Source of the DNA: Magnetococcales bacterium
GTDB lineage: Bacteria > Pseudomonadota > Magnetococcia > Magnetococcales > DC0425bin3
Reading direction: 5' to 3'
Length of the DNA stretch: 12,398 nt
Assembly: GCA_015229045.1 (NCBI GenBank)
Contig: JADGCJ010000093.1
Location: 1 to 12,398, forward strand
The notes below the pieces were generated by a model. The model did no database searches. It was not told where the DNA came from and saw nothing but the letters and a program-made list of their open reading frames with translations. Shown here piece by piece: positions 1 to 12,398 of this stretch. Within the stretch, counting starts at the first letter, position 1; each line of letters starts with the position of its first letter. A program made the position numbers and the translations under genes.

Positions 1-88
1 CTCCGATGTACCCCCCATTGACACCCCACCCCCGCACCCCTATCTATTCAGGGAGCCGTTTGACGAGGCATCAAGTGGAGCATGGGGT

Positions 89-1015
89 ATGGATGACGGG
101 GCAAGGATGGGTCTGGAGGATCTGGTCAGGTTGCGGCATCAGGCGGCGGCGTTGGCGTTGCCGGGATCGGTGCGGACGGCCAATCCCTGGGCGGGCCCCT
201 TTCGCTCGTTGTTTCGCGGCAGGGGGATGGAGTTCGAGGAGACGCGCCTCTATCAACCCGGCGATGACATACGCAGCATGGATTGGCAGGTGACAGCCCG
301 CACCGGCAAGCCCCACTCCAAGGTGTTCAGGGAGGAGCGGGAACGACCCGTCTTTCTGGTGGTCGATCTCAACCCGGGAATGGCCTTCGGGACGAAGGTG
401 GCGTTCAAGTCGGTGGTGGCGGTCCGGCTGGCGGGTCTGCTGGGCTGGGTGGCGGCATTGGCCGGGGATCGCATCGGCGGGGTGGTACTGGGAGCGGCGG
501 GTCCGCTCTTGTGTCGCCCGGCAGGGGGGCAGCGCGGCTTGTTGCCTCTGCTGCGTGCTTTGGCCTCGCGGCAACCAGTCCCCGGCGGCAATGGGCCGTC
601 ATCCCCCTGGCTGGCGGATGGCCTGGCCCGCTTGCGCCGCGTGGCACGACCAGGCTCTTTGATGATCCTCTTGAGCGATTTCACCTCCCTGGACGCGACG
701 GCGGAGCGTTTGCTCGGTCTGCTGGCGCCACACAACACCCTGCTGGGGGTGATGATCCACGACCCCCTGGAGGTGACGTTACCGGCGGAGGGCATTTTTT
801 CCTTTACCGATGGCCAACGCATCTTGCGGCTGGAGACCGGCGCGGCAACCCTGCGTGCCCGACACCAGCAACGCTTTCGGGAACGACAAGCGGCGGCGGA
901 GAGATTGTTCGGACGGCTCGCAGCGCCTCTGCTGACGCTGGCGACCGATCAGCCGATAACCGGATTTTTGCGCCGGGAGATGCAGCCGCTCCTCTCGCAC
1001 CGGGGGCAGCGATGA
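89..1015 (+). CDS. DUF58 family protein (VWA-like), first gene of Bat-type operon
   Basis: The 308-residue product matches the DUF58 family, which usually sits beside moxR and bat genes and is thought to act with MoxR AAA+ ATPases on VWA proteins. The diagnostic motif R-x-Y-x-PGDDIR-x-x-DW is at about residues 53-66, followed by the RPVFLVVDLNPGM strand (87-98), a degenerate VWA metal-site region lacking the full DxSxS. The ATG at 89 is preceded by GGAG at 77-80, and the residues after it (LEDLVRLRHQA) are the usual family start. However, the same frame is open back to base 2, so a start upstream of the window cannot be excluded. It overlaps the next gene by ATGA. The family assignment is firm; the molecular function is known only from context. 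Confidence 0.9.
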   Translation: MDDGARMGLEDLVRLRHQAAALALPGSVRTANPWAGPFRSLFRGRGMEFEETRLYQPGDDIRSMDWQVTARTGKPHSKVFREERERPVFLVVDLNPGMAFGTKVAFKSVVAVRLAGLLGWVAALAGDRIGGVVLGAAGPLLCRPAGGQRGLLPLLRALASRQPVPGGNGPSSPWLADGLARLRRVARPGSLMILLSDFTSLDATAERLLGLLAPHNTLLGVMIHDPLEVTLPAEGIFSFTDGQRILRLETGAATLRARHQQRFRERQAAAERLFGRLAAPLLTLATDQPITGFLRREMQPLLSHRGQR

Positions 1016-1503
1016 ACGACACCGATCCTCTGGCCGGACTGCGGGGCTTGCACGACCCGGCACCGATTCCCCTCTGGCCACCGGCCCCGGGGTGGTGGAT
1101 CGTGTCGGGATCGCTGCTCCTGCTCGCCGCCGGACTGGGCGGCTGGGCCTGGTGGCGCCGCCGGAGGGGTCGCGACCCCCGACGCGCCGCCCTGGCCGAG
1201 CTGGCCAACCTCGAAACACGCTTTCGCACAGACGGCGATGCCACGGCGCTGGCAACCGGGGTCTCTGTTGTGCTGAAACGCAGCGCTCTGGTACGCTTTG
1301 AGCGACAGCGGGTGGCCTCGTTGACCGGCGAGGCCTGGCTGCAATTTTTGGACGCGACCGGCCACTGCACGGCTTTCACGCATGGCGCCGGGCGGGTATT
1401 GGCCACGGCTCCTTATCGACCGGGCGTGGCGGTGGATCCCGAACCCCTGCTGGCGGCAGCCAGGGAGTGGATCCAGCAAGCCGGTCGGCAGGCGGGAAGG
1501 TAG
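1012..1503 (+). CDS. DUF4381 domain membrane protein
   Basis: This 163-residue protein has the typical DUF4381 opening: a short Leu/Asp/Pro-rich head ending in LWPPAPGWW (about residues 22-30), one membrane helix (about 31-48) and an Arg-rich cytoplasmic flank (WWRRRRGR). A helical soluble part follows. Such proteins occur almost only between DUF58 and BatA genes and are presumed partners in the same membrane complex. The ATG at 1012 overlaps the DUF58 stop (ATGA), which indicates translational coupling. The reading frame is open further upstream to 283, but that part is out-of-frame sequence inside the DUF58 gene, so 1012 is the natural start. The biochemical role is unknown. Confidence 0.85.
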   Translation: MNDTDPLAGLRGLHDPAPIPLWPPAPGWWIVSGSLLLLAAGLGGWAWWRRRRGRDPRRAALAELANLETRFRTDGDATALATGVSVVLKRSALVRFERQRVASLTGEAWLQFLDATGHCTAFTHGAGRVLATAPYRPGVAVDPEPLLAAAREWIQQAGRQAGR

Positions 1504-1506
1504 ACG

Positions 1507-2520
1507 ATGGAGAGCGGTCTGCACCTCCAATGGCCCTGGATGGGCCTGTTTCTGCCGCTGCCCTGGTTGGTGTGGCGTTTTTTGTCGCCGGGAAGAGTCT
1601 CCGCCGGGCAGGCGTTGCTGGTGCCCTTTTTTCAGGCATTGCTGCGAGGAAGTGGCTCTGCGCCGCCACCTCGCTCACCCTCGTTCAGGATCGGGCTGGG
1701 GCTGGGCGGCGTGATCTGGCTGTTGCTGGTCGCCGGGGCATTGCGGCCCCAATGGCTGGAAAAACCGGCTCTGCAACCCTCGACGGGACGCGATCTGTTG
1801 CTGGCGGTGGATCTCTCCGAGAGCATGTTGATCAAGGACTTTGCCTGGCAGGGGCAGCAGATCAATCGCTTGCAGGCGATCAAGGCGGTGGCGGGGCCAT
1901 TCATCCGGCGACGCACCGGCGACCGCCTGGGCCTGATCCTGTTTGCCGATCACGCCTATCTGCAAACACCGTTGACCTTCGATCTGGAGACCGTGGCCAC
2001 CATGCTGCGCGAGGCGGAAATCGGGCTGGCCGGCAAGATGACGGCCATCGGCGAGGGGATTGGTCTGGCGGTACGCCGTCTGCGCGAACGACCCCAACAA
2101 GGGCGCGCCCTGATCCTGCTGACCGATGGCGCCAACACAGCCGGCACCGTCGATCCGCACAAGGCGGCCCGGTTGGCAGCCCAGGAGGGGGTGCGCATCT
2201 ATCCCATCGGCGTCGGCTCGACCAAGCCCATGGCGGTGGAGACCTTTTTTGGAACGCAGATGGTCAATCCATCAGAGGATCTCGATGAACCCGGCCTGAA
2301 GGAGATGGCCCGCATCACCGGCGGACGCTATTTCCGGGCAGCGGATACCGAGGCCATGGCGGAGATTTATCAGGAGCTTGACCGGCTCGAACCCACCCTC
2401 TCCAAACCCGAACAATACATGGTGCGCACCGAGCTGCATCCCTGGTTGTTGGGACCGGCCCTGGTGCTGTCGATGCTGTTGGCCCTCCTGATCCTCAGAC
2501 GGAGGCGCGGTCGTGGTTGA
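1507..2520 (+). CDS. batA: BatA-like VWA domain membrane protein
   Basis: The 337-residue protein has the BatA layout: an N-terminal hydrophobic helix (about residues 10-25), a second helix (about 63-79), a VWA domain (about 95-290) and a C-terminal helix (about 313-330) followed by an Arg-rich tail. The metal-ion-dependent adhesion site is complete: D102-x-S104-x-S106, T179 in the MTAIGEGI segment, and D207 in LLTDG. A divalent-metal-binding, protein-interacting domain is therefore likely intact and should face the periplasm or cytoplasm between helices 2 and 3. It starts 3 bases after the previous stop, with a GGAAGG ribosome site at 1495-1500. Bat proteins are linked to oxidative or envelope stress tolerance, but their direct targets are poorly known. 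Confidence 0.9.
   Translation: MESGLHLQWPWMGLFLPLPWLVWRFLSPGRVSAGQALLVPFFQALLRGSGSAPPPRSPSFRIGLGLGGVIWLLLVAGALRPQWLEKPALQPSTGRDLLLAVDLSESMLIKDFAWQGQQINRLQAIKAVAGPFIRRRTGDRLGLILFADHAYLQTPLTFDLETVATMLREAEIGLAGKMTAIGEGIGLAVRRLRERPQQGRALILLTDGANTAGTVDPHKAARLAAQEGVRIYPIGVGSTKPMAVETFFGTQMVNPSEDLDEPGLKEMARITGGRYFRAADTEAMAEIYQELDRLEPTLSKPEQYMVRTELHPWLLGPALVLSMLLALLILRRRRGRG
2501..2505 (+). promoter_or_regulatory. Ribosome binding site deciding a GTG start
   Basis: GGAGG lies 7 bases before GTG at 2513, inside the 3' end of the BatA-like gene. No ATG in this frame gives the conserved first membrane helix, so this site supports the GTG start of the VWA-TPR protein. Confidence 0.65.
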
Positions 2521-4372
2521 CAATGGCCTCCATTTTTTGCGTCCCCTGTGGCTGTGGGGCATGGTGCCGCTGCTGGCCATCTTGTGGCAACTGTGGCACA
2601 CCACCCAGGGCGGACAGGAGTGGCGCAGGGTGTGCGATGCCCATTTATTGCCGCATCTGCTGCGAACAGGCGGCGAACGCCAGGAACGCAGCTGGTTCTG
2701 GCTGTTGAGCACGGGAATGCTGGGGTTGCTGCTGGTCCTGGCGGGACCGACCTGGTCGCGGGTGCCGACGCCGCTGTTTCGCCCCCAGGAGGCCCTGGTG
2801 GTGGTCCTCGATCTCTCCCGTTCCATGCTCGTGGCGGATGTGTTGCCTTCGCGCCTGGAGCGGGCCAAACAAAAAGTCCAGGATCTCCTGCAAAGGGTGG
2901 GGCCAGGACAGAGCGGACTGGTGGTCTTTGCCGGCGATGCCTTCATCACCGCGCCACTGACCGATGATGTCCATACCATCCTTGCCCTGCTCGGCTCCCT
3001 GGAACCGGGACTGATGCCGGTTCAGGGGAGTCTGCCGCATCGGGGACTGGAGATGGCCCTCAAGGTGCTGGAACAGACGGTCGTCAATCAAGGCGCCATA
3101 CTCCTGGTCACCGATGGCGATGCCGCCCCCTCCAGCACCCTGGAAGCCGCCCATCGTCTGGCCGCCAAGGGGTATCGACTCTCCGTTCTTGGCGTGGGAA
3201 GCGCTGCGGGCGGTCCCATTCCCGATCCGGGCGGAGGATTTATTCTCGATCGGAAAGGACGGCCTCTTCTGGCCACCTTCTCCGGTGACTCCCTGGCGGC
3301 GCTGGCCCGGGTAGGAGGCGGCATCTACACCGCGTTGACCCCGGATGATCACGATCTCGACCTCCTCCTGGCCGGTTTGGCACATGGGGGTACGCTGGGA
3401 CCGGCCCGGTCGTCGCGCGCCACCACCGACGTGTGGGACGAACAGGCTCCCTGGCTGTTGCTCCTGATTCTGCCCCTGGCAGCGCTGGCCTTTCGTCGCG
3501 GCTGGCTGCCGGGGATGGGATTGGCGCTGCTGTTGACGTTGCCGCGTCCGGTCCTGGCCATGACCTGGGACGACTGGTGGCTGCGCCCTGACCAACAGGC
3601 CGAACGGGCACTGCAAGCCGGCAATCCGGCGCGAGCCGCCGAGCTGTTTCAGGATCCCGGCTGGCGTGGCATGGCGCAACATCAGGCTGGTCGGCAGGAG
3701 CAGGCCGCCGAGTCGTTCGCCCACTGGGGCAGCGCCGATGGCCATTACAACCGAGGCAATCTTTTGGCCCGCCAGGGGCACCTCCAGGAGGCCATTCAAG
3801 CCTACGATCAGGCCCTGCAACTCGATCCCGCCATGCAGGATGCCAAGGCCAACCGGCACCTGGTCGAACAATTGTTGAAGAAAGAAAAAGAGAAAGAACA
3901 ACCCTCCCCTCAACAGTCGCCCAAGAGCGCCGATCAGCCCCAACAAGGTTCATCCTCTGCCGAAAACAAGGAGAATAAAGAGAAAAACGGCGAGAAGGAG
4001 AAAAATCAGGCAGACGAAAAGTCCGGGGAGAAGCCACTCTCAAGCGGGTCAGCTTCCAACGAGAACCAACAGCCGGACACCCAAGAGGGGAAGAGAGAGA
4101 AGGAAAAGGAAAAGGAAAAGGAAAAGGAAAAGGAAAAGGAAAAGGATCAGCACGCAACAACCACCGACAGCAACCAAAAAAATACACCTGACAAAAAAGA
4201 TCTCCCCAGGAAAGAGTTGGCGGACCGTACACCCCTCGATGCGGAGAACCGGCAAGCCCTGGAGCAGTGGTTGCAGCGGATTCCCGACGACCCCGGGGGG
4301 TTGTTGCGACGCAAATTTCTTCTGGAACAACGGCGGCGTGGCCGCCCGACTGAGGTGACGGAGCCATGGTGA
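2513..4372 (+). CDS. VWA and TPR domain protein (BatB-BatC fusion)
   Basis: The 619-residue protein joins a BatB-like half to a BatC-like half. Two N-terminal helices (about 11-28 and 61-78) lead into a VWA domain with MIDAS D100-x-S102-x-S104 and D201 in LLVTDGD. The Thr of the site is replaced by the GSLPH segment, as I recall is common in BatB. Two more helices (about 313-328, 332-350) precede TPR-like helices (about 360-450; the clearest repeat is around YNRGNLLARQGHLQEAIQAYDQALQLDP). A long, charged, low-complexity Lys/Glu/Gln linker (about 455-570) follows, then a conserved C-terminal motif (ALEQWLQRIPDDPGGLLRRKF). The start is GTG at 2513, overlapping batA by 8 bases, with GGAGG at 2501-2505 seven bases upstream. 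Confidence 0.88.
   Translation: MVDNGLHFLRPLWLWGMVPLLAILWQLWHTTQGGQEWRRVCDAHLLPHLLRTGGERQERSWFWLLSTGMLGLLLVLAGPTWSRVPTPLFRPQEALVVVLDLSRSMLVADVLPSRLERAKQKVQDLLQRVGPGQSGLVVFAGDAFITAPLTDDVHTILALLGSLEPGLMPVQGSLPHRGLEMALKVLEQTVVNQGAILLVTDGDAAPSSTLEAAHRLAAKGYRLSVLGVGSAAGGPIPDPGGGFILDRKGRPLLATFSGDSLAALARVGGGIYTALTPDDHDLDLLLAGLAHGGTLGPARSSRATTDVWDEQAPWLLLLILPLAALAFRRGWLPGMGLALLLTLPRPVLAMTWDDWWLRPDQQAERALQAGNPARAAELFQDPGWRGMAQHQAGRQEQAAESFAHWGSADGHYNRGNLLARQGHLQEAIQAYDQALQLDPAMQDAKANRHLVEQLLKKEKEKEQPSPQQSPKSADQPQQGSSSAENKENKEKNGEKEKNQADEKSGEKPLSSGSASNENQQPDTQEGKREKEKEKEKEKEKEKEKDQHATTTDSNQKNTPDKKDLPRKELADRTPLDAENRQALEQWLQRIPDDPGGLLRRKFLLEQRRRGRPTEVTEPW
4101..4146 (+). repeat. Hexanucleotide microsatellite (AGGAAA)n inside the VWA-TPR gene
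   Basis: Seven perfect copies of AGGAAA run from 4101 to 4142, plus a partial eighth. They encode an alternating Glu-Lys tract in the charged linker (about residues 530-544). The unit is 6 bases, so gain or loss of copies keeps the frame and changes only the linker length by two residues each. Purine-only strand asymmetry extends on both sides. Confidence 0.95.
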
Positions 4373-6312
4373 CAGTACGGTCGTTTCTACTCTCTCTGCT
4401 CCTGGCGCTCCTGGTTGGCATGCAACCGGGAGTCGTTGTCGGGGCTGGTGTCATCGCCCGGGTCGATCAGTCGGTCGTTCCCGAAGGGGAGTCTCTGCGT
4501 CTCACCCTGTCGCTCTCCGGCAGTCAGGGCAGGGTGCCGCAACCGGATTTGACCCCCCTGGAGAAGGATTTTCAGGTGCTGGGTACCAGCTCCGAGAGTA
4601 CCATGCACATCATCAACGGGCATATGGAGTCGACGGTCGGCCTGACCATCACCCTGTTGCCCCTGCGACCAGGCAAAGGGGTCATCCCCAGCCTGGAGGT
4701 GGCCGGCATGAAGACCGCGCCGATTGCCATCGAGGTGGTTCCGGCGACCTCCCAAGCCGGAAACAACCGGGCCGGGAACGGAACCCCCGCCGAGGCCGGG
4801 GCCTATTTTCTGGAAACGGAAGTGGACAGCAAAACCCCTTATGTCCAGGGACAGGTGGTGTTGAAGGTGCGTTTTTATCGCGCCGTGACGTTTACGCAGG
4901 GCGAGATCGCCGATCCGGTCATCGAGGATGCCGTGGTGGAGCGCATGGGGGAGGATCGCTCCTTCAGCACCGAAATCAGGGGCCGTACCTACGAGGTTTT
5001 GGAGCGTTCCTACGCAATTTTTCCCCAGAAGAGCGGTCCGGTCATCTTGCCTGGACTGGTCTTTCAGGGACAGGTGCGCCTCTCCCGGCCCCGGCCCCGG
5101 ACACGGGATCCGGGTGGCATCAGCCCCTTTGCCAACGACCCGTTTTTTCAGAATTTCTTTGGGCGCGACCCCTTTGCCGGTCTGCTGGAACAGACCCGCC
5201 CGGTCAAGTTGCGCAGCGATCCGCTTCCGCTGGAGGTACGGCCACGCCCGGCGGAATTCAACGGCCCCTGGTGGTTGCCAGCGGCGCAAGTCACCCTGTC
5301 TGACAGCGGCCTGTCCGATCCGATCGAGGTGCGGGTGGGGGATCCTCTGACGCGCACGGTGGGTCTGCATGCCAAAGGTCTGGCCGCGACACAGCTGCCG
5401 GAGATACCCAAACCGCGTCTGGATGGCCTCAGCATCTATCCTGATCAACCCGTGATCCAATCGCAACCCAAGGGAAAGTGGATTCTCGGGGAGCGCGTGG
5501 AAAAATGGGCCATGGTTCCCTCCCGGCCAGGGAGCTATACCCTGCCCGCCATCGACATTCCCTGGTGGGATGTGACCGAAAATCGCGCCAAGGTGGCCCA
5601 ATTACCCCCTCGGACCCTCACGGTTTTGCCGACCGCCGGTTCGACCTCTCCGGCAACGTCGGGTGTGGCGTCACCGCTCGCACAGGCACCCTCTGTCTCG
5701 GGAGCGACAGGTACACCTGCCGAGCAAAACGCCCCGGTTTCGATCCCCTCGCCAACACCACCCCCCTCTGCCGCTGGAGAGTCTGCCACGACGGTCGGGC
5801 ATGCAAAATATTCCGGCGGTGATGGCGCGGCCTTCCATGGTGCATCGGCTGGTTATTGGCCCTGGGTGGCGGGAGGCATGCTGCTGGTCTGGCTGGCGAC
5901 CCTGGGCGTGTGGTGGAGGCAACGCTCCCGCCTGATGCAATCGGCGGGAGCCGCCTCATCCCCCCTGCCTCACTCTACCAGAAAACCGCGACCCGATGTG
6001 GCACCCGTGGAGAAGGCCTGTGCAACCAACGATCCGCGCCGCATCGCCGAGGCCTTGCTCACCTGGGCAGCCCAGGCTTGGCCGGATAATCCACCCCGTA
6101 CCCTGGGCGCCTTGCAGGCTCGGTTGGACCCGTTCGCCGCCCCGGCCATCATCGGCCGCTTGGAGCAAACTCTCTACGCCCCAGACACTCCCTGGAATGG
6201 AACAAATTTTTGGCAGGCTATACACCCTTTGCTGCACCTGCCTGATGCCGGGGCCTCCACACCACCATCCACGGTGTTGCCCTCCTTGAATCCGGAGCAA
6301 AAACCACAATAG
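4366..6312 (+). CDS. batD: BatD family protein
   Basis: The 648-residue protein begins with a clear signal peptide (hydrophobic core about residues 6-25, likely cleavage near AGA at about 26-28). A large periplasmic beta-rich region follows, starting with the family opening A-x-V-D-Q-S-x-V-x-x-G-E-x-L-x-L-x-L (31-48). A Pro/Ser/Thr/Ala-rich stalk (about 420-475) leads to one membrane helix (about 497-517) and a cytoplasmic helical tail (about 545-630) with the usual TWAAQAWPDNPP-type segment. This is the full BatD layout. The ATG at 4366 overlaps the previous stop (ATGGTGA) and is preceded by a near-ideal GAGGTGA at 4352-4358. It is the last gene of the operon. Role in envelope or oxygen stress is by family association only. 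Confidence 0.9.
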   Translation: MVTVRSFLLSLLLALLVGMQPGVVVGAGVIARVDQSVVPEGESLRLTLSLSGSQGRVPQPDLTPLEKDFQVLGTSSESTMHIINGHMESTVGLTITLLPLRPGKGVIPSLEVAGMKTAPIAIEVVPATSQAGNNRAGNGTPAEAGAYFLETEVDSKTPYVQGQVVLKVRFYRAVTFTQGEIADPVIEDAVVERMGEDRSFSTEIRGRTYEVLERSYAIFPQKSGPVILPGLVFQGQVRLSRPRPRTRDPGGISPFANDPFFQNFFGRDPFAGLLEQTRPVKLRSDPLPLEVRPRPAEFNGPWWLPAAQVTLSDSGLSDPIEVRVGDPLTRTVGLHAKGLAATQLPEIPKPRLDGLSIYPDQPVIQSQPKGKWILGERVEKWAMVPSRPGSYTLPAIDIPWWDVTENRAKVAQLPPRTLTVLPTAGSTSPATSGVASPLAQAPSVSGATGTPAEQNAPVSIPSPTPPPSAAGESATTVGHAKYSGGDGAAFHGASAGYWPWVAGGMLLVWLATLGVWWRQRSRLMQSAGAASSPLPHSTRKPRPDVAPVEKACATNDPRRIAEALLTWAAQAWPDNPPRTLGALQARLDPFAAPAIIGRLEQTLYAPDTPWNGTNFWQAIHPLLHLPDAGASTPPSTVLPSLNPEQKPQ

Positions 6313-6475
6313 AATTTTTTATGCCACAATTTTTTTGATCACGAAACAGGCGTTCTTTTACTTGCGGAACGCATGGTGTTTCGGCTACCAATGCACGGTG
6401 GGGTATCTTGCCGGGGCGTACCCCCTGGCGAACTCTCTTGCCCCTTTGGTTTGTTTTTCCGGAGTGCTTTTGGTG

Positions 6476-6503
6476 TTGACAAATTTTATGGCACGAAAAT
6501 TTG
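6476..6503 (+). promoter_or_regulatory. Possible operator palindrome with -35-like TTGACA
   Basis: TTGACA at 6476-6481 overlaps the left arm of a perfect 8-base inverted repeat, CAAATTTT (6480-6487) and AAAATTTG (6496-6503), separated by 8 bases. This AT-rich symmetric site stands out in GC-rich surroundings and is about 190 bases before mamS. It could be a regulator-binding site over a promoter. No convincing -10 box is found 16-18 bases downstream, so the promoter part is weak. Confidence 0.3.
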
Positions 6504-6510
6504 GGCAAGG

Positions 6511-6600
6511 GCCTGTCGAAAACAGGGTCCGGGAGGCTGGCAATCGGACAGGTCCAGGACAGACTCCTGGTGGAGATTGGGGCAAAACCCCAACAAGACA
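6511..6600 (+). repeat. Dispersed palindromic repeat, diverged copy 1
   Basis: It aligns along its length with the copy inside the ZorA-like gene. It starts with CCTGTCGAAAAC, then a GGGTCCGGGAGGCTGG segment, then hairpin CCAGGA (6554-6559)/TCCTGG (6565-6570), then hairpin TTGGGG (6577-6582)/CCCCAA (6588-6593). It is more diverged than the other copies, but both stems are still paired. Same orientation as the other copies. Confidence 0.85.
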
Positions 6601-6690
6601 GCCTTCAAACAGCCGAAATAACGGTCAAATCCGAAAATCGCTTGAAAATGATGCGACCTCCCCACGGTTGCTCCCTGCCAGGACCGGCCC

Positions 6691-7317
6691 ATGAAAACCG
6701 AAGAGTGGATTGGTCTGGTTGGGGCGATATTTTTGTTGGTCGTCGTTGTTTTGGCGGTGGTGCCTTGGGATGTGCGCAAGAGCTCTTCCCAGTCGGGTGG
6801 TGGGGCTGAGGGTGTCAATCTGCTGGTGCCGCAGCCTGGTTTTGTTGGTGCATTGCCGCCTGGCGGGGGAGCGTCTCTTTTTCCTGGTATGGGGCAGGCG
6901 ATTCCTGTGGCGGCCCAGACCAGTGTGCCCGGGGGTCCGCCGACCCCGACCCTGGCCGAGGGGGCGACGGTCGCCCAACCCGGTCTCATGCCGTTCGAGC
7001 AGGCCCCCATGGTGCGTTTCGATGGTGTCATTCAACAGATGACCGAGTTGCCGCAGCAGGATCGGCAGGTTCACATCTGGATTCACGAGGGGGGTGGGCG
7101 GGAGAGTCATGTCAGCGTCGGTCCGCAATGGTTTTTGAATTACATGGGGTGCGATCTGGTCCACGATCAGCACGTATCCGGCAAGGGGTTTCGCTTTGAT
7201 CGCACCCGTCTCGAGCCGGACCCGGTCATTTATGCCAAGCAGTTGCTGGTCAACGGGCGCTGGTGCCAGCTGCGCAACGATGAAGGGTTCGCCTTGTGGT
7301 CGAACCAATTGCGGTAG
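6691..7317 (+). CDS. mamS: MamS-like magnetosome protein
   Basis: The 208-residue protein has an N-terminal membrane helix (about residues 7-25), a Gly/Pro-rich linker (about 34-106) and a compact beta-rich C-terminal domain (about 107-206). The pattern VxFDGVI...VHIWI...VSVGPQWFLNYMGC...LRNDEGFALW resembles the OB-fold-like domain of MamS. I recognise this from memory and not from an alignment. Support comes from position: it sits 6 bases upstream of a MamT-like gene, as mamS does in alphaproteobacterial magnetosome islands. In magnetotactic model species MamS affects magnetite crystal size and shape. The linker is long compared with the roughly 180 residues I recall for MamS. AGGA at 6680-6683 fits the ATG. 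The C-terminal domain should be in the magnetosome lumen or periplasm. Cys154 and Cys192 are its only cysteines. Confidence 0.7.
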   Translation: MKTEEWIGLVGAIFLLVVVVLAVVPWDVRKSSSQSGGGAEGVNLLVPQPGFVGALPPGGGASLFPGMGQAIPVAAQTSVPGGPPTPTLAEGATVAQPGLMPFEQAPMVRFDGVIQQMTELPQQDRQVHIWIHEGGGRESHVSVGPQWFLNYMGCDLVHDQHVSGKGFRFDRTRLEPDPVIYAKQLLVNGRWCQLRNDEGFALWSNQLR

Positions 7318-7323
7318 ACCGGG

Positions 7324-7830
7324 ATGAAGAGTCGGCGACCGAACCGGGCCAAACCCTTGTCGAGCATGTTGATGGTCCTGGTCATTCTCGGTGCGGGGGC
7401 GCTGTTGTACGAAAAATACAAAGGAACCCTTGCGGAGTGGACGCAAACCCGGCTACCCCGTTTCATTCGCGGGGAGATTTTTGGTTCCATGCCCACCCCG
7501 ACCGAACCGACCATGCCGGATGTGGTGATCGATACGATGCAGGTACAGCCCGCCCGATCCGTGAAGATGGTGGTGAGACGGTTGCCGATCATAGCGCATA
7601 ATGCAAAGATTCCGCATACTTATTGGGGGCCATGTACCAGGTGTCACCTGATCCGGGGCGGCGATCCGCCCGGGAGTCAACCCATCACCCCGGTGGGAAA
7701 GGTTTTGGAGCGGGTGTCGTCGATTTACAAGATCGGTCCCCCCATTCTGCCTGATTCCACGCGTCACCATCCGGCGGCGGGTCGTTGCATCAAGTGCCAT
7801 GACATCGTCGTCCAGATGCCTGCCCGCTGA
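7324..7830 (+). CDS. mamT: MamT-like magnetochrome c-type cytochrome
   Basis: This 168-residue protein has a basic N-terminus (KSRRPNRAK), one membrane helix (about residues 13-29) and two heme c binding motifs: C104-T-R-C107-H108 and C155-I-K-C158-H159. Each heme motif is the end of a magnetochrome-like module: PIIAHNAKIPHTYWGPCTRCH and the second, more diverged PILPDSTRHHPAAGRCIKCH. Magnetochrome domains are known only from magnetosome proteins (MamE, MamP, MamT, MamX) and control iron redox state during magnetite growth. MamT has exactly two, and its usual length (about 174 residues) matches. The heme modules should lie in the lumen or periplasm. Spacing to MamS is 6 bases and to the next gene 12, so it is one operon. 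The ribosome site before 7324 is weak, so translational coupling is likely. Confidence 0.85.
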   Translation: MKSRRPNRAKPLSSMLMVLVILGAGALLYEKYKGTLAEWTQTRLPRFIRGEIFGSMPTPTEPTMPDVVIDTMQVQPARSVKMVVRRLPIIAHNAKIPHTYWGPCTRCHLIRGGDPPGSQPITPVGKVLERVSSIYKIGPPILPDSTRHHPAAGRCIKCHDIVVQMPAR

Positions 7831-7842
7831 CGGGAGAGTGCC

Positions 7843-10800
7843 ATGTCGGAACAGCTTGTCACCCTGATTGTTGCCCCCGCCACGGCCTGGTTTTTGGCCT
7901 TTTTTGTCTTGTTGCTGGGCATTCTGGAGTGGGGCAATCTGATCTATTTTCGTTTGCATGGTGTGCGCCAGCAACTGGATCAGGCCCTGCACTGGCTGGA
8001 GTCGAGTCCCGAGGATGTCGAGGCGTTTGCCGAGGCATTTCGTCCCCTGAACGCCAAATGGGGCGGCATCGCCTTTCTTCAGCTCACCTGGAGTGCGTTT
8101 CGCGGCACGATCGTCATGCCGGCCGGAGGGGGCGGGGTGCGTTCGCTGGTCCGGGCGACGGCCTTTTTCGACCCGGATCTTTTGCTCCCCATGGCGCTGC
8201 CGATGCGCCGCATCCGCGCCGTGCCCTATTTTTTGCTGGGCACGGGCGGCATGGCCTCTCTGGTGATGCTGTTGACCACCCTGCTGGTGTATTTGCGTGG
8301 TGCGACGCCCGACGATGGCGCTGCCGTGCAGGCCATTGTCCAGGATGCATGGCGTTACCTGCCTTTGCAGTTGCTGCCGACGGCGATGGGCGTTTTTGTT
8401 GGCATCTGGGTTGGCCTGGAGAGTCGGCGCCATTTGGCCGGACTCGAGGCGCGCATCCGCCAGTTTGCCCAGGGGGTGGAGAGCCGCATTCACTACATGG
8501 CCGACGCCACCCTGCTGGTCGACCACCTGCGCAGCACGGGCCAGACTGCCGGGGTGGGCCTGCCTGCCGATTGGACGGAACGGCTGGTCGATGCCCTGCG
8601 GGATCTTTTGAAGGAACAGAATATTTCCTCCCACAAGGGCGTCGAAGCGGAGGGGCTGTGGGTGCGAAAAATGGAAGAGATTTTCGCCCCGATGGCGCAG
8701 GAGCTGGAGAGGAACGGGGCGCGTTGGGAGAGCCTGTTGGAACTTCTGGACAAGAGCAACAGCCGTCGCAACGAGGGTCTGGAGCGACTGGGCCAGCGTT
8801 TTGGCGAGATGCAGAAGGTCACGACCCGCGAGCTTGATCAGACGCTGACGGCGGCTGTTCAGGGGGTCGGGATCCAGGTTGGTGCGGCGTTTCAGGAACA
8901 GATGGAACGCCTGGCCAAACGCCAGGAGCAGGGGGAGCGGTGGCGTGGCGACTTGAACACGACGCTGGCCACGCTGGCCCAGGCGAACCAGAGCCAGGCG
9001 GAGCGTCTGGCGCAGGTGCTGGAGGGAGTACGTTCCGCTCTCGAACAGATACGGCAGATTCTGCACTCCGGCTCGACGCAGCAGCAGGCTGAACTGCGCG
9101 AACAGTGGCGCCAGATGCGCACCCTGGTGCAGGAGTTGGCGAAAGATATTCATCAGGGCCTGGATCGGCAACAGGAGAAGATTGTGCCGACGCTGACCCG
9201 TTTCAGTGCCACCCTGGCTGAACTGGAGAGCAGGCAGGCCGTTCATGAGCAGAAGGTGCAGAAAAACATTCTGGAGACGGTGACCTCGACTCTGCACGAC
9301 GAGGGGGAGAGGCTGGTCAAGCGCCAGGGCGAGAGTGCGCAACAGCTGTTGCACGAGGTGCGCCAGCGCATGGCAAGCCTTGTTCCGGACGATGCCCGGC
9401 ATTTGAGCGTTCTGGCGGAGAAGCTGGAGCGGGTGCTGGTCGTGCTGTCGGCCCGGGGCGGGGGGAGTGGCGGGAGCGAGGGGAGCGGCGGGAGTGGCGG
9501 CGAGGGGAATGGTGTATCGCTGGAGCCGGTCATCGCCTGGGTGCAGGAGGAGAGCGCCCGCATGGCCGAACGCCACGAGGCTCTCCTGCGCGGGGTGCTT
9601 GGCGAGTGGCTGGCGGCGATTCCTGATCAGGGCGTGGAGCGGGAGCAGTTGGAGCGGTTCATGCAGCGCATGGAGGCGGCCAGCCACAAGCTCGAAGAGG
9701 GTATCGATTTGCTGACCAGCGTCGGCAGCCTCGATGCACAGAGCGCTCCACCGCAGGGGCACGAGCAGGCCATTGTCGATGGCATGGCCGCAGTCAAGAC
9801 GCTTTTGGAGGGGATCAGGGAGGAGTTGCATCTGCGCGAACAGAGTGCAGCCGACCTGCAGGCCGGTCTCGAACGTCTGGAGCGGGGGCTTGTCGAAAAC
9901 GGGGTCCGGGAGACTGGCGACGATGGGGGCCAGGGGGCTGGCGACAATGGGGTCCAGGGGGCTGGCTCCCTGGCGGGTCCAGGGCAGAGCCCTGGCGGGG
10001 TTTGGGGCGGCGCCCCAACAAACAAAGACGGGGTCCAGGGGACTGGCGACCGGACAGGCCCAGGGCAAAGCCCTGGCGGGGTTTGGGGCGGCGCCCCAAT
10101 GGAGCAGCTCGTTGGGGAGAGTCTGGCGCGTTTTGAGAGGCAACTGCAGGAAAATATTGATCAATTTTTGAACGACCACGGTCGGAAGATGACCGGCAGC
10201 CTGCATGTAGCGGAGGAGGGTTTGCTGTCGCTGCTGACGCGCTTCCAGGAGCAGGTGGCGTCGAGCCAGGAGCGTGACCGGAGCGATCAGCAGGTGCAGG
10301 AGGGACTGCATCAGCTCCAGGAGGCGCTGCTTTGGCAGATGCAGGCGGAGGGCGGCAAGGTTGACGGCATTGGCCAGGCGGTGCGGGAGGGGTTGGCACG
10401 TCTGGAGGAGCGACTGCGTGACCAGCCGGCGGCGTTCTGGGCGGATGGAGGTCAAAAGATCAGCGATCTTGTGCAGGGCCTGGCCCGGGAGCTGGGCGTC
10501 CAGGTGAGTGCGACCCTGACGGCGGATTTGCGCCAACAAACCGATGTTTTGCAAGAGACTTTGCAGGAGATTGGGCGTCGTCCGGTTGCCTTGACCCAGG
10601 CGGCGGTGAGCGAGCTGGCGGAGCGGGTGCGCGGGGGTGTTTCCCAGGCGACCGAGGAGGCCCTGCTGACCCTGATGACGTTGTTTCAGGAGCATCTGGA
10701 GAGGGGCCAGGGGCAGCAGCAGGCAGCATTCCGGGAGCTGTTGAGCGGCATGACCACGCACCTGGAGGGGCTGTTTGCACAGGGCCTGAAACCGGCCGGG

Positions 10801-11331
10801 GAGACCCTGACCTGGTTGCGGGAGGCGTTGACGCACAATACGACCACGGCGCAGCAGGAGTTGTTGGCACAGATGGGCCAGTTGGCGCGTCAGGTCGAAG
10901 CCTCCCATCAGGTCGGCGAGCAGGAGCGCAAGGCGGCGTTTCAGACGGCGCTGGAGGCGTTGTTCGAGCGCATGCGTGGTGTTGTCGATGAGCGCCTGGA
11001 ACCGATCCGGGTTGCACTGGAAGAGGTGCGTGGCACCGTCGGCGACGAGGTTGCGTTGGCCAATCAGGAGCTCATGGAGAAGATGCTCCATCTGACCAAC
11101 CGCATCGAAGAGGTGCAGGAGAACGCAGCCGATATTCTGTCCGAACTGGCCACCCTCGATGAACCCTTCATCCAGCTGGCCGCCGCCATCCGGGAGAGCA
11201 TCACCGGCATGGAACAGACCCAGGATGCGGTCTTTTTCTTCACGGAGAAGTTCCCCGAACTCCTGGCCACCTACCTGGAGGCCATCGAGGATGAAAACGA
11301 CAGATCACAGACCCAAGGAGATCAACCATGA
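7843..11331 (+). CDS. ZorA/MotA/ExbB-like proton channel protein with giant helical tail
   Basis: The 1162-residue protein has three membrane helices at about residues 10-35, 128-152 and 172-194. Between the first two is a cytoplasmic stretch ending in ATAFFDPDLLLP (106-116) and a pre-helix RxxxVPYFLLGTGG (about 123-136). The third helix contains LPTAMGVFVGIWVGL with Thr180, at the place of the conserved Thr of MotA/TolQ/ExbB channels, and runs into a charged helix (RRHLAGLEARIRQF). This layout is that of ZorA from Zorya systems. The tail (about 195-1160) is rich in Gln, Glu, Leu and Arg and is probably coiled coil, broken by a Gly/Ser hinge (about 537-557) and by an in-frame repeat (about 683-752). 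GGGAG at 7832-7836 fits the ATG. It overlaps the next gene by ATGA. Whether it serves magnetosomes or phage defence cannot be told here. Confidence 0.75.
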   Translation: MSEQLVTLIVAPATAWFLAFFVLLLGILEWGNLIYFRLHGVRQQLDQALHWLESSPEDVEAFAEAFRPLNAKWGGIAFLQLTWSAFRGTIVMPAGGGGVRSLVRATAFFDPDLLLPMALPMRRIRAVPYFLLGTGGMASLVMLLTTLLVYLRGATPDDGAAVQAIVQDAWRYLPLQLLPTAMGVFVGIWVGLESRRHLAGLEARIRQFAQGVESRIHYMADATLLVDHLRSTGQTAGVGLPADWTERLVDALRDLLKEQNISSHKGVEAEGLWVRKMEEIFAPMAQELERNGARWESLLELLDKSNSRRNEGLERLGQRFGEMQKVTTRELDQTLTAAVQGVGIQVGAAFQEQMERLAKRQEQGERWRGDLNTTLATLAQANQSQAERLAQVLEGVRSALEQIRQILHSGSTQQQAELREQWRQMRTLVQELAKDIHQGLDRQQEKIVPTLTRFSATLAELESRQAVHEQKVQKNILETVTSTLHDEGERLVKRQGESAQQLLHEVRQRMASLVPDDARHLSVLAEKLERVLVVLSARGGGSGGSEGSGGSGGEGNGVSLEPVIAWVQEESARMAERHEALLRGVLGEWLAAIPDQGVEREQLERFMQRMEAASHKLEEGIDLLTSVGSLDAQSAPPQGHEQAIVDGMAAVKTLLEGIREELHLREQSAADLQAGLERLERGLVENGVRETGDDGGQGAGDNGVQGAGSLAGPGQSPGGVWGGAPTNKDGVQGTGDRTGPGQSPGGVWGGAPMEQLVGESLARFERQLQENIDQFLNDHGRKMTGSLHVAEEGLLSLLTRFQEQVASSQERDRSDQQVQEGLHQLQEALLWQMQAEGGKVDGIGQAVREGLARLEERLRDQPAAFWADGGQKISDLVQGLARELGVQVSATLTADLRQQTDVLQETLQEIGRRPVALTQAAVSELAERVRGGVSQATEEALLTLMTLFQEHLERGQGQQQAAFRELLSGMTTHLEGLFAQGLKPAGETLTWLREALTHNTTTAQQELLAQMGQLARQVEASHQVGEQERKAAFQTALEALFERMRGVVDERLEPIRVALEEVRGTVGDEVALANQELMEKMLHLTNRIEEVQENAADILSELATLDEPFIQLAAAIRESITGMEQTQDAVFFFTEKFPELLATYLEAIEDENDRSQTQGDQP
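9889..10099 (+). repeat. Dispersed palindromic repeat copy 2, tandem units inside the ZorA-like gene
   Basis: After the shared CTTGTCGAAAAC head come two 24-base partial units (9901-9924, 9925-9948), a full unit (9949-about 10029) and a second near-full unit (10030-10099). The full unit has three successive hairpins: 9954-9973 (8 pairs, one G-T), 9979-9995 (CCAGGGC/GCCCTGG) and 10002-10018 (TTGGGGC/GCCCCAA). The last two recur at 10060-10076 and 10083-10099. The element is read through in frame and gives a Gly/Pro-rich insert, about residues 687-752, with a twice-repeated GPGQSPGGVWGGAP, between helical segments. Confidence 0.93.
11315..11320 (+). promoter_or_regulatory. Strong ribosome binding site for the ZorB-like gene
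   Basis: AAGGAG lies 7 bases before the ATG at 11328, within the last codons of the ZorA-like gene. It supports coupled but efficient translation of the second subunit. Confidence 0.75.
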
Positions 11332-12287
11332 AGGGATTCGAGCCGAATCACTTTTCGGTTGTCATTGAGCTGGTGGTGGGATTGATGGTCACGGCCGTTT
11401 TGTTGCTGCTAATCGGCAACGTGGTGGTTTGGGGCAGTCGGCCATCCACCCCCTCGACCAGGCTGGTACCAGCAACGATTGGCCAGGAAACACCTGCCCA
11501 GGGAAGTTCCTCTGCACCAAAGACCAAGACAGGATATGCCCCCACAACCACCGGCCACGTCACCAAAGGTGCAGGCGATCCTCTTGGCGCTCCGCCCCCG
11601 CCAGGCGCCCTGCCAAAACGCACCACCCCTGACGAAACAATAGCCCCGTCCCTCCCCCTGAAGGGTGACCCTACCAGGTCGAACATGCTCCAGATCCCGC
11701 CCCCCACCCCGGAAGAGGAGTCGACCAAGGCGACGGCACCCCATGACAACCCGGTAAAGGCAGCCCGTAGCGACCTTCTGGATCGTTTGGAAACACTTTT
11801 CCACGCCAAAAACATGGTTTTTGAATCTGACCGAGAGACTGGCACCCTGTTTCTGCCGGAACTTTTTCAGTTTTCCCTGGGATCGGCCAAACTGGACTCT
11901 CACAAGCAGGACAAAATCAAGACCGCATTGGACATCCTCGCCGATGTGGTGCCGTGCTTCGTCCCGGAGAGTGCTGCACCGGTGCCCTGTTCGGGTACGG
12001 TAAGCCCGGTCAAACTCAGGGGTATCTTCATCGTCGGCACCTCCAATCACGAAGGGGATCAAGCCCGCCGAATTACCAACATGACCCTGGCCTTTGGTCG
12101 CGCCTCGACGGCCTTCGCGACCATGGTCAGGCTCCATCCGCAGCTTTTCAGTCTGCTGGGAAGCGATGGTCACGGCCTGTTTCGTGTCGAAGCCATGAGC
12201 GTCAAGGCCGATCAACCGGAAGTGTTGCGGCGCGTGGTGTTGCGTTTTTCGCTCGCCGCGCCGACAAAGCCGACCGCTACCAAGTAG
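11328..12287 (+). CDS. ZorB/MotB-like protein with OmpA-like C-terminal domain
   Basis: The 319-residue protein has a short cytoplasmic head, one membrane helix (about residues 11-35), a Pro/Thr-rich linker (about 38-140) and a C-terminal domain (about 150-312) resembling the OmpA/MotB peptidoglycan-binding fold. The match includes FQFSLGSAKLDSHKQDKI (181-198), GTSNHEG (237-243) at the place of the family GHTDxxG, N251-x-x-LAFGRA (R258) at the place of NxxLSxxRA, and RRVVLRF (301-307). In MotB, ExbD and ZorB a membrane Asp carries the proton; here the equivalent place seems to hold Glu14. Cys210 and Cys221 could form a disulfide. It overlaps the ZorA-like gene by ATGA, so the two should form one channel-anchor complex. 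No further gene of a Zorya set is visible before the window ends. Confidence 0.75.
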   Translation: MKGFEPNHFSVVIELVVGLMVTAVLLLLIGNVVVWGSRPSTPSTRLVPATIGQETPAQGSSSAPKTKTGYAPTTTGHVTKGAGDPLGAPPPPGALPKRTTPDETIAPSLPLKGDPTRSNMLQIPPPTPEEESTKATAPHDNPVKAARSDLLDRLETLFHAKNMVFESDRETGTLFLPELFQFSLGSAKLDSHKQDKIKTALDILADVVPCFVPESAAPVPCSGTVSPVKLRGIFIVGTSNHEGDQARRITNMTLAFGRASTAFATMVRLHPQLFSLLGSDGHGLFRVEAMSVKADQPEVLRRVVLRFSLAAPTKPTATK

Positions 12288-12290
12288 CCG

Positions 12291-12312
12291 TGCCCTGGTT
12301 GACAACAGGGCA
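12291..12312 (+). terminator. Probable hairpin terminator after the ZorB-like gene
   Basis: TGCCCTG (12291-12297) and CAGGGCA (12306-12312) form a perfect 7-pair stem starting 4 bases after the stop codon. Two more T-A pairs are possible inside. The stretch after it is only modestly T-rich (ATTTGAGATTTTC), so it may be a weak terminator or a 3' end protecting hairpin. Confidence 0.5.
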
Positions 12313-12357
12313 ATCGCATTTGAGATTTTCGGGGACCATGAACAGTGATTCGGGGAC

Positions 12358-12398
12358 CTGTCAAAACGGGGTCCAGGGGGCTGGCTCCCTGGCGGGTC
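12358..12398 (+). repeat. Dispersed palindromic repeat copy 3, cut by window end
   Basis: It begins CTGTCAAAAC and its bases 12368-12398 are identical to 9949-9979 in the copy inside the ZorA-like gene (31 of 31). The first hairpin (12373-12392) is complete; the rest lies beyond the window. Same orientation as the other two copies. Confidence 0.9.

Follow-up and report, generated by a model that had tools for sequence, protein, structure and literature searches.

A pair of genes that resemble zorA and zorB is found directly behind the magnetosome genes mamS and mamT in a Magnetococcales bacterium (GCA_015229045.1, contig JADGCJ010000093.1, positions 1–12,398, forward strand; this whole stretch of 12,398 nt is termed the window). 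ZorAB is a proton-driven 5:2 rotary motor with a long cytoplasmic tail, and is part of the anti-phage Zorya systems. All listed genes of the window are on the + strand and run from left to right as bat-type genes, mamS, mamT, the zorA-like gene and the zorB-like gene. mamS (6691–7317, 208 aa) scores 201.0 bits with the NCBIfam model NF040991 (MamS, cut-off 200). mamT (7324–7830, 168 aa) encodes magnetochrome domains, with two stretches that match Pfam MCR, and scores 217.3 bits with NF040992 (MamT, cut-off 200).

The zorA-like gene (7843–11331, 1162 aa) starts 12 bases after mamT in the same direction and overlaps the zorB-like gene (11328–12287, 319 aa) by ATGA; the sequences GGGAG and AGGAG precede the starts of zorA and zorB. 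The contig ends 111 bases past zorB, and therefore zorC, zorD or zorE cannot be read in the window itself. The membrane domain of ZorA comprises residues 1–230 (7843–8532), as delimited by an AlphaFold2 model, Foldseek and an alignment with relatives, and a tail-tip domain is placed at residues 1071–1145 (11053–11277). In ZorB, the AlphaFold2 model shows a transmembrane helix at residues 7–36 (11346–11435), in which Glu14 takes the position of the ion-binding Asp, and a periplasmic OmpA-like domain at residues 142–309 (11751–12254), with VGTSN in place of the EGHTD motif.

Family assignment of the pair

Matches of the window ZorA to PADLOC ZorA models are weak. The best (E value 4.2e-11) has its best stretch in the coiled region, and another model matches residues 9–223 with an E value of 1.2e-5. 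The PADLOC ZorB match is clearer (E value 9.7e-19). NCBIfam ZorA_1 covers residues 7–226 of the window ZorA with 31.3 bits, well below the cut-off of 190 bits, which the homologue of Magnetococcus marinus MC-1 does not reach either (55.8 bits). A PHROGs search of the pair reveals no motor family, and comparison of the two sequences with those of the PDB gives nothing useful. Two alignments, A3 (39 rows) and A4 (38 rows, with one row with masked letters excluded), were drawn from larger sets and served as AlphaFold2 input. Their profiles match ZorA and ZorB among PDB sequences; however, A3 holds six and A4 four defence Zorya rows, so these matches are not independent.

The model of ZorA residues 1–270 has a mean predicted local distance difference test score (pLDDT) of 89.6, and a Foldseek search of the PDB places six ZorA chains on top, with E values of 1.7e-8 to 5.7e-5 and template modelling scores (TM-scores) of 0.56–0.63 by query length; ExbB ranks behind them with an E value of 0.016. 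The ZorB model has a pLDDT of 78.8, with a periplasmic domain that is mostly above 90 and a low-confidence linker that follows the single helix. Here too ZorB chains come first (E values 6.0e-9, 2.4e-7 and 1.7e-6; TM-scores of 0.37–0.41 by query length), the best being 8vvn_B with TM-scores of 0.41/0.56, and they are followed by PA0833, YfiB and MotB domains. ZorA has a C-terminal extension of approximately 930 residues, in keeping with the long cytoplasmic tail of a ZorA motor subunit, and the modelled ZorB combines one helix with an OmpA-like periplasmic domain, as expected of ZorB.

MotAB, ExbBD and TolQR share the general 5:2 motor architecture and one acidic residue in the partner helix. 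Because Foldseek ranks ZorA and ZorB chains first, the pair is assigned by its predicted folds to the ZorAB family, and not to MotAB, ExbBD or TolQR; these other families have no Pfam match to the pair, and ZorB is preferred over MotB in the fold search. An ExbBD/TolQR energiser is rejected on account of the OmpA-like domain of the partner and of the better fold matches to ZorA. A 5:2 complex would follow from the fold.

A preliminary description, made from the sequence of the window, had pointed to a two-gene pair 12 bases behind mamT on the same strand with an ATGA overlap, and the list of open reading frames agrees. It had also proposed a three-helix ZorA/MotA/ExbB layout with a one-helix OmpA-like partner. 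Three hydrophobic helices are found in the close ZorA relatives (MC-1, PR-3, G040, G003, G004 and others; G numbers denote genomes of the survey given below), with which the window ZorA aligns, and the ZorB part is borne out by the AlphaFold2 model. Lack of any motor profile match was to count against the proposal. With Pfam this is literally the case, as there is neither a MotA_ExbB nor an OmpA/MotB match to the pair, but PADLOC ZorA and ZorB matches and the fold matches were found.

Gene order and neighbours in Magnetococcia

In a search of 5.8 billion proteins, in which only candidates sharing exact words were scored (approximately 8000 sharing most words), two relatives were found with the N-terminal part of ZorA and four with ZorB. 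A search with a profile built from eight members of the clade, under the same limit on candidates, recovered the protein of the window itself and seven relatives, which are from Magnetococcales bacteria or Magnetococcus and include Mmc1_2246 of M. marinus MC-1 and proteins of Magnetococcus sp. PR-3 and M. massalia MO-1.

A survey was made of 48 Magnetococcia genomes, mostly drafts with short contigs. Long MamT matches are present in 44, and 28 of these are over the cut-off. A ZorA-like gene lies next to mamT on the same strand in nine of the 44 mamT loci (G001, G003, G004, G007, G013, G014, G040, MC-1 and PR-3), and thus the co-occurrence with mamS and mamT that the preliminary description had proposed to look for is found, MC-1 included. 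mamB precedes mamS in G001, G004 and MC-1, as judged by NCBIfam. In MC-1, PR-3 and G040, the order mamS-mamT-zorA-zorB is continued on one contig by two further genes, here termed X and Y. In G003, a separate contig opens with a partial zorB of the same clade, and X and Y come after it. In G004, the intact mamT-zorA copy can be read only into zorA, and the readable zorB-X-Y is behind a second copy with a decayed mamS and zorA. Remnants like pieces of mamS and zorA are present on contig C65 of this genome (locus L110), upstream of position 9697 and before the intact zorB, X and Y, and represent a second, decayed copy of the block. The downstream side of zorB is therefore readable in five close-relative loci (MC-1, PR-3, G040, G003 and G004), and it is X and Y that come next, not zorC–zorG. 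Co-linearity with mam genes is conserved in several lineages, as is characteristic of a magnetosome cluster gene.

Protein X is 193–214 aa in length with one hydrophobic helix (MC-1, PR-3 and G040), and Pfam reveals no family in X of MC-1, G004 and one other genome. Protein Y is approximately 1400 aa; that of G040 is cut by the fetched stretch. A PilZ domain is present in Y of MC-1 and of G004, the two Y proteins of the clade scanned with Pfam, and is not detected by Pfam in the more distant Y of G010. Models of Zorya effectors do not match X and Y of MC-1 and G004, or Y of G003. X is the more widespread element, in that it is downstream of mamT in 28 of the 44 loci and upstream in three.

Between mamT and X, 19 loci carry a gene for a protein of approximately 300 aa, termed D1, which has no hydrophobic helix in the ten listed cases. 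The C-terminus of D1 aligns without gaps by hhalign to the last 75 or so columns of the ZorA tail, i.e. the tail-tip domain (P 1.3e-4, probability 54%, identity 17%), and five control segments of the tail give P values of 0.05–0.54. A plain hidden Markov model of the ZorA tail finds D1 rows with E values from 3e-8 to insignificant, as well as tails of other ZorA-like genes. The likeness, seen at the sequence level, can be looked at as a lead, not as proof, that the tail tip and D1 are related.

ZorA-like genes are associated with magnetosome genes beyond the mamT slot. The count was based on 112 of the 120 rows of a 38-row profile search, six second gene fragments and the two weakest rows having been excluded, and on 188 markers: the 44 long mamT rows, mamK over the cut-off plus three shorter matches, and mamH over the cut-off. 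The expectation is the share of the genome that is equally close to a marker on the same contig, with genome sizes rounded. Of the 112 genes, 47 share a contig with a mamT, mamK or mamH marker and are no more than 20 kb away from it, where 2.4 are expected; at 1 kb or less there are 17 (expected 0.33). The excess is real, but its magnitude is biased upward by a profile rich in rows linked to magnetosomes and by the relatedness of the genomes. Chance neighbourhood is rejected on these counts. At least one ZorA-like gene is within 20 kb of a marker in 33 of the 48 genomes.

Eight genomes carry a ZorA-like gene with a weak match that starts downstream of a mamK match, at a distance of no more than 450 bases; two of the mamK matches are end fragments, and such weak ZorA-like genes may be of other motor branches. 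The loci are G027 C143, G028 C56, G029 C272, G030 C39, G031 C12, G033 C52, G034 C472 and G037 C161. Some ZorA-like open frames exceed 4000 residues; these are found at L139 (7778–19999), and also in G011 C262, G044 C164 and G046 C159.

Defence Zorya, a ZorA-ZorB-ZorC-like trio and key residues

Zorya defence systems are also found in these bacteria. EH_Signature, the domain of ZorC, is found in 28 rows from 21 of the 48 genomes, and 12 rows score above 79 bits, none of which is on a mamT contig. G004 holds a separate and complete Zorya, with ZorA, ZorB, ZorC and ZorD by PADLOC (ZorD with 1115 bits), and both G003 and G004 carry the strong EH type elsewhere in the genome. The nine mamT-zorA genomes have no EH_Signature gene close to the pair.

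A different type is present in 15 genomes (L115–L129), in which a protein of 418–447 aa with a weak EH match is encoded directly behind a zorAB pair. This trio is on a mamT contig in 11 of the 15 genomes, and a twelfth is on a contig with mamH; the nine mamT-zorA genomes do not have it. Among 18 scanned proteins, of which 15 are ZorC-like trio proteins, 12 gave an Hpt match; the domain was seen individually in L118 (E value 5.3e-7) and, below its cut-off, in L116 (E value 0.0049). A response regulator and feoB come after the L118 trio, and there is no ZorD. In a report on strain UR-1, the trio is listed as proteins of unknown function (EH-signature, MotB and apolipoprotein-like), and Zorya is not named in the excerpt of that report (PMC6783814). 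The trio is a second, Zorya-derived device in magnetosome clusters. It is like the window pair in being a ZorAB-type motor inside such a cluster, but has a ZorC-like third gene, retains the Asp and EGHTD residues discussed below, and groups with defence Zorya.

Trees were made from defence rows of Magnetococcia only, together with the other loci, and exclude loci that duplicate others and matches shorter than 150 residues. The seven core ZorA sequences (window, G001, G003, G004, MC-1, PR-3 and G040) form a clade with a support of 100/99, and eight core ZorB sequences do so with 98/96. Trio and defence rows join with 97/94 in ZorB and 91/93 in ZorA. In approximately unbiased tests, the ZorB data reject a single clade of core plus defence (p 0.015) and of core plus trio (p 0.003). 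The pairs of G007, G014 and G013 take positions that differ between the ZorA and ZorB trees.

Published work on Zorya found the ZorB Asp, D24, to be crucial for defence, with binding of peptidoglycan and the tail of ZorA important as well (PMC11890865). In all seven core ZorB rows that include the helix the ion site is Glu (Glu14 in the window), and it is Asp in 7/7 defence and 15/15 trio rows. The EGHTD motif is likewise present in 7/7 defence and 15/15 trio ZorB rows and in no core row, where its counterpart is VGTSN in the window and VGKSN, EGHSP or TGQSR in others. By sequence, the pair thus lacks both the ion-site Asp and the GHT region of the peptidoglycan site that typify Zorya. In core ZorA, the hydroxyl of the second transmembrane helix is provided by Ser or Thr throughout. 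At the ion site of the ZorB proteins of G007 and G014, encoded behind mamT (L108 and L109), an acid is missing, and these proteins may therefore not conduct.

The best fold match of both subunits is type I Zorya ZorAB (8qyd; 8vvn, of Shewanella sp. ANA-3). A long-tailed ZorA, a one-helix ZorB with an OmpA-like domain, and adjacent genes are common to both. The window pair differs in its longer tail, the Glu in place of the ion-binding Asp, the lack of EGHTD, and its own clade, and it is found beside mamS and mamT and, in relatives, X and Y (with PilZ in the two Y proteins mentioned), rather than beside zorC and zorD.

Possible roles of the pair and the flanking sequence

Two readings had been offered in the preliminary description: that the motor serves magnetosome function, or that a defence core has been placed in a magnetosome island. 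The former is favoured by the conserved mam link, the failure to find Zorya effectors beside close relatives, and a clade of its own with altered ion-site and cell-wall-site residues. The latter is not supported for this pair, although the trio, which does occupy other magnetosome clusters, qualifies its rejection. On balance, the pair probably forms an ion-driven 5:2 motor of the ZorAB type, one that is part of the magnetosome gene set of magnetotactic cocci and stands outside any Zorya defence system, and the findings suggest that ZorAB-type motors have been recruited to serve the magnetosome organelle.

Such a motor would have five ZorA subunits around two ZorB, in the cytoplasmic or the magnetosome membrane, with ions passing by way of Glu14. 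The ZorA tail would extend into the cytoplasm, and its conserved tip may dock to a partner of the magnetosome system, with protein X and MamK as candidates. The PilZ protein Y might gate the motor in response to cyclic di-GMP (c-di-GMP). Rotation of the rod, or a conformational change, would then position, tension or anchor the magnetosome chain relative to the envelope. A bolder proposal is that ZorAB motors were recruited repeatedly, and that the motor of the window and MC-1 is in the magnetosome membrane, where ZorB would face a lumen without peptidoglycan and a c-di-GMP-gated rod would pull or orient the MamK-borne chain. The lost cell-wall motif would be explained by this location, but the proposal as a whole is unlikely. 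If true, it would represent a powered organelle-moving motor of a type undescribed in the papers searched.

Several observations weigh against the favoured reading, in addition to the upward lean of the association count. Of the 44 loci, 35 have mamT without a ZorA-like gene behind it, and four of these 35 have a contig end less than 600 bases from mamT. In G001, a tetratricopeptide repeat (TPR)/sulfotransferase protein, and not ZorB, is encoded after the zorA tail (L112), and the sole ZorB match of this genome (L001, 171–2619) is behind a FliI/YscN-family ATPase gene. Glu at the ZorB ion site is not specific to the clade, as it is also present in G013 and in 10 of 13 other non-defence, non-trio Magnetococcia rows with the helix. 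The ZorB of G007, also behind mamT, retains EGHTD, and Arg258 is invariant in 39/39 aligned ZorB sequences, which shows that the cell-wall site is not wholly lost. The hydroxyl of the third transmembrane helix, provided in defence rows by the Ser of TSIAG, is Thr180 in the window and is absent from the six other core ZorA rows, and ion conduction is therefore uncertain. The ZorA data do not reject core plus defence or core plus trio in the approximately unbiased tests (p 0.09 and 0.10). Finally, the MC-1 ZorB, Mmc1_2246, is annotated only as a 'hypothetical protein'.

It can be asked whether an anti-phage Zorya core, whole or decayed, landed in a magnetosome island. The closest folds and the closest PADLOC families of the pair are indeed ZorA and ZorB, and Zorya is present in Magnetococcia, as shown by the 12 strong EH rows off mamT contigs and the ZorABCD set of G004. 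Nevertheless this is very improbable. EH_Signature genes are missing near the pair in all nine mamT-zorA genomes, X and Y have no Zorya effector match where scanned, and the Asp and EGHTD residues of the seven defence ZorB rows are altered in the core clade. In addition, linkage to mamS-mamT and to X and Y spans deep branches, and the curated ZorA cut-off is far from being reached (31 versus 190 bits). Zorya defence is thus rejected as the best reading of this pair on the basis of effector neighbours, altered residues and the mam link.

PilZ proteins often act on motility. This, together with a hybrid histidine kinase, a CheY-like protein and a STAS protein downstream in other mamT loci, the Hpt domain that the ZorC-like protein of the trio can carry, the response regulator beside the L118 trio, and the location of the G001 zorB behind the FliI/YscN-family gene, may point to an envelope, flagellar or chemosensory device that shares a cluster which collects motility and signalling genes, and that has no action on magnetosomes. 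The eight ZorA-like genes behind mamK suit the chain better than flagella, however, and the window pair is 12 bases behind mamS-mamT in the same direction; we hold such a device to be unlikely. Slightly less likely still is a non-rotating relative, in which ZorB would have ceased to conduct ions, the pair functioning as an envelope–cytoplasm tether or mechanosensor. The loss of EGHTD in the core clade, the hydroxyl missing from six of seven core ZorA rows and the ZorB of G007 and G014 without an acid are consistent with it, but an acid, Glu, is retained in all seven core ZorB rows that include the helix, and a change of Asp to Glu at the MotB site leaves weak function.

No literature was found that joins 'magnetosome' and 'Zorya', or that deals with the MC-1 genes Mmc1_2244–2248, and the literature searched held no mutant data on an effect of the pair on magnetosomes. 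The pair is not described in the available portions of PMC7175107 (on flagella), PMC3934378 and PMC7453278. The presence of ZorAB, known as an anti-phage core, in an organelle gene cluster and with changed key residues suggests that this class of motor performs work other than defence. The pair is a candidate, accessible to genetic tests, for the device that powers or anchors the magnetosome chain in magnetotactic cocci. It also may offer an evolutionary case of a defence-type machine that was domesticated, with a second lineage that kept the ZorC EH domain and at least some members of which added Hpt.

The left part of the window (2–6312, + strand) encodes a DUF58 protein, DUF4381, two VWA proteins and BatD, as judged by open reading frames and Pfam; no relatives of these bat genes turned up among the fetched Magnetococcia loci. 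A dispersed repeat is present at 6503–6596 in the gap between batD and mamS, at 9885–10102 within the zorA frame, where repeat families D1 and D2 (names of repeats, unrelated to protein D1) are found in the tail, and at 12352–12398 at the contig end. The copy in the zorA tail has no clear counterpart in two aligned relatives, as P0002 is gapped at this place and P0003 has a different sequence there. The bat-mamS junction coincides with a copy of the repeat and may therefore have arisen by rearrangement or from an assembly join, and the repeat may explain the bat-mamS neighbourhood or mark such a join. The link between mamT and zorA is independent of this junction.

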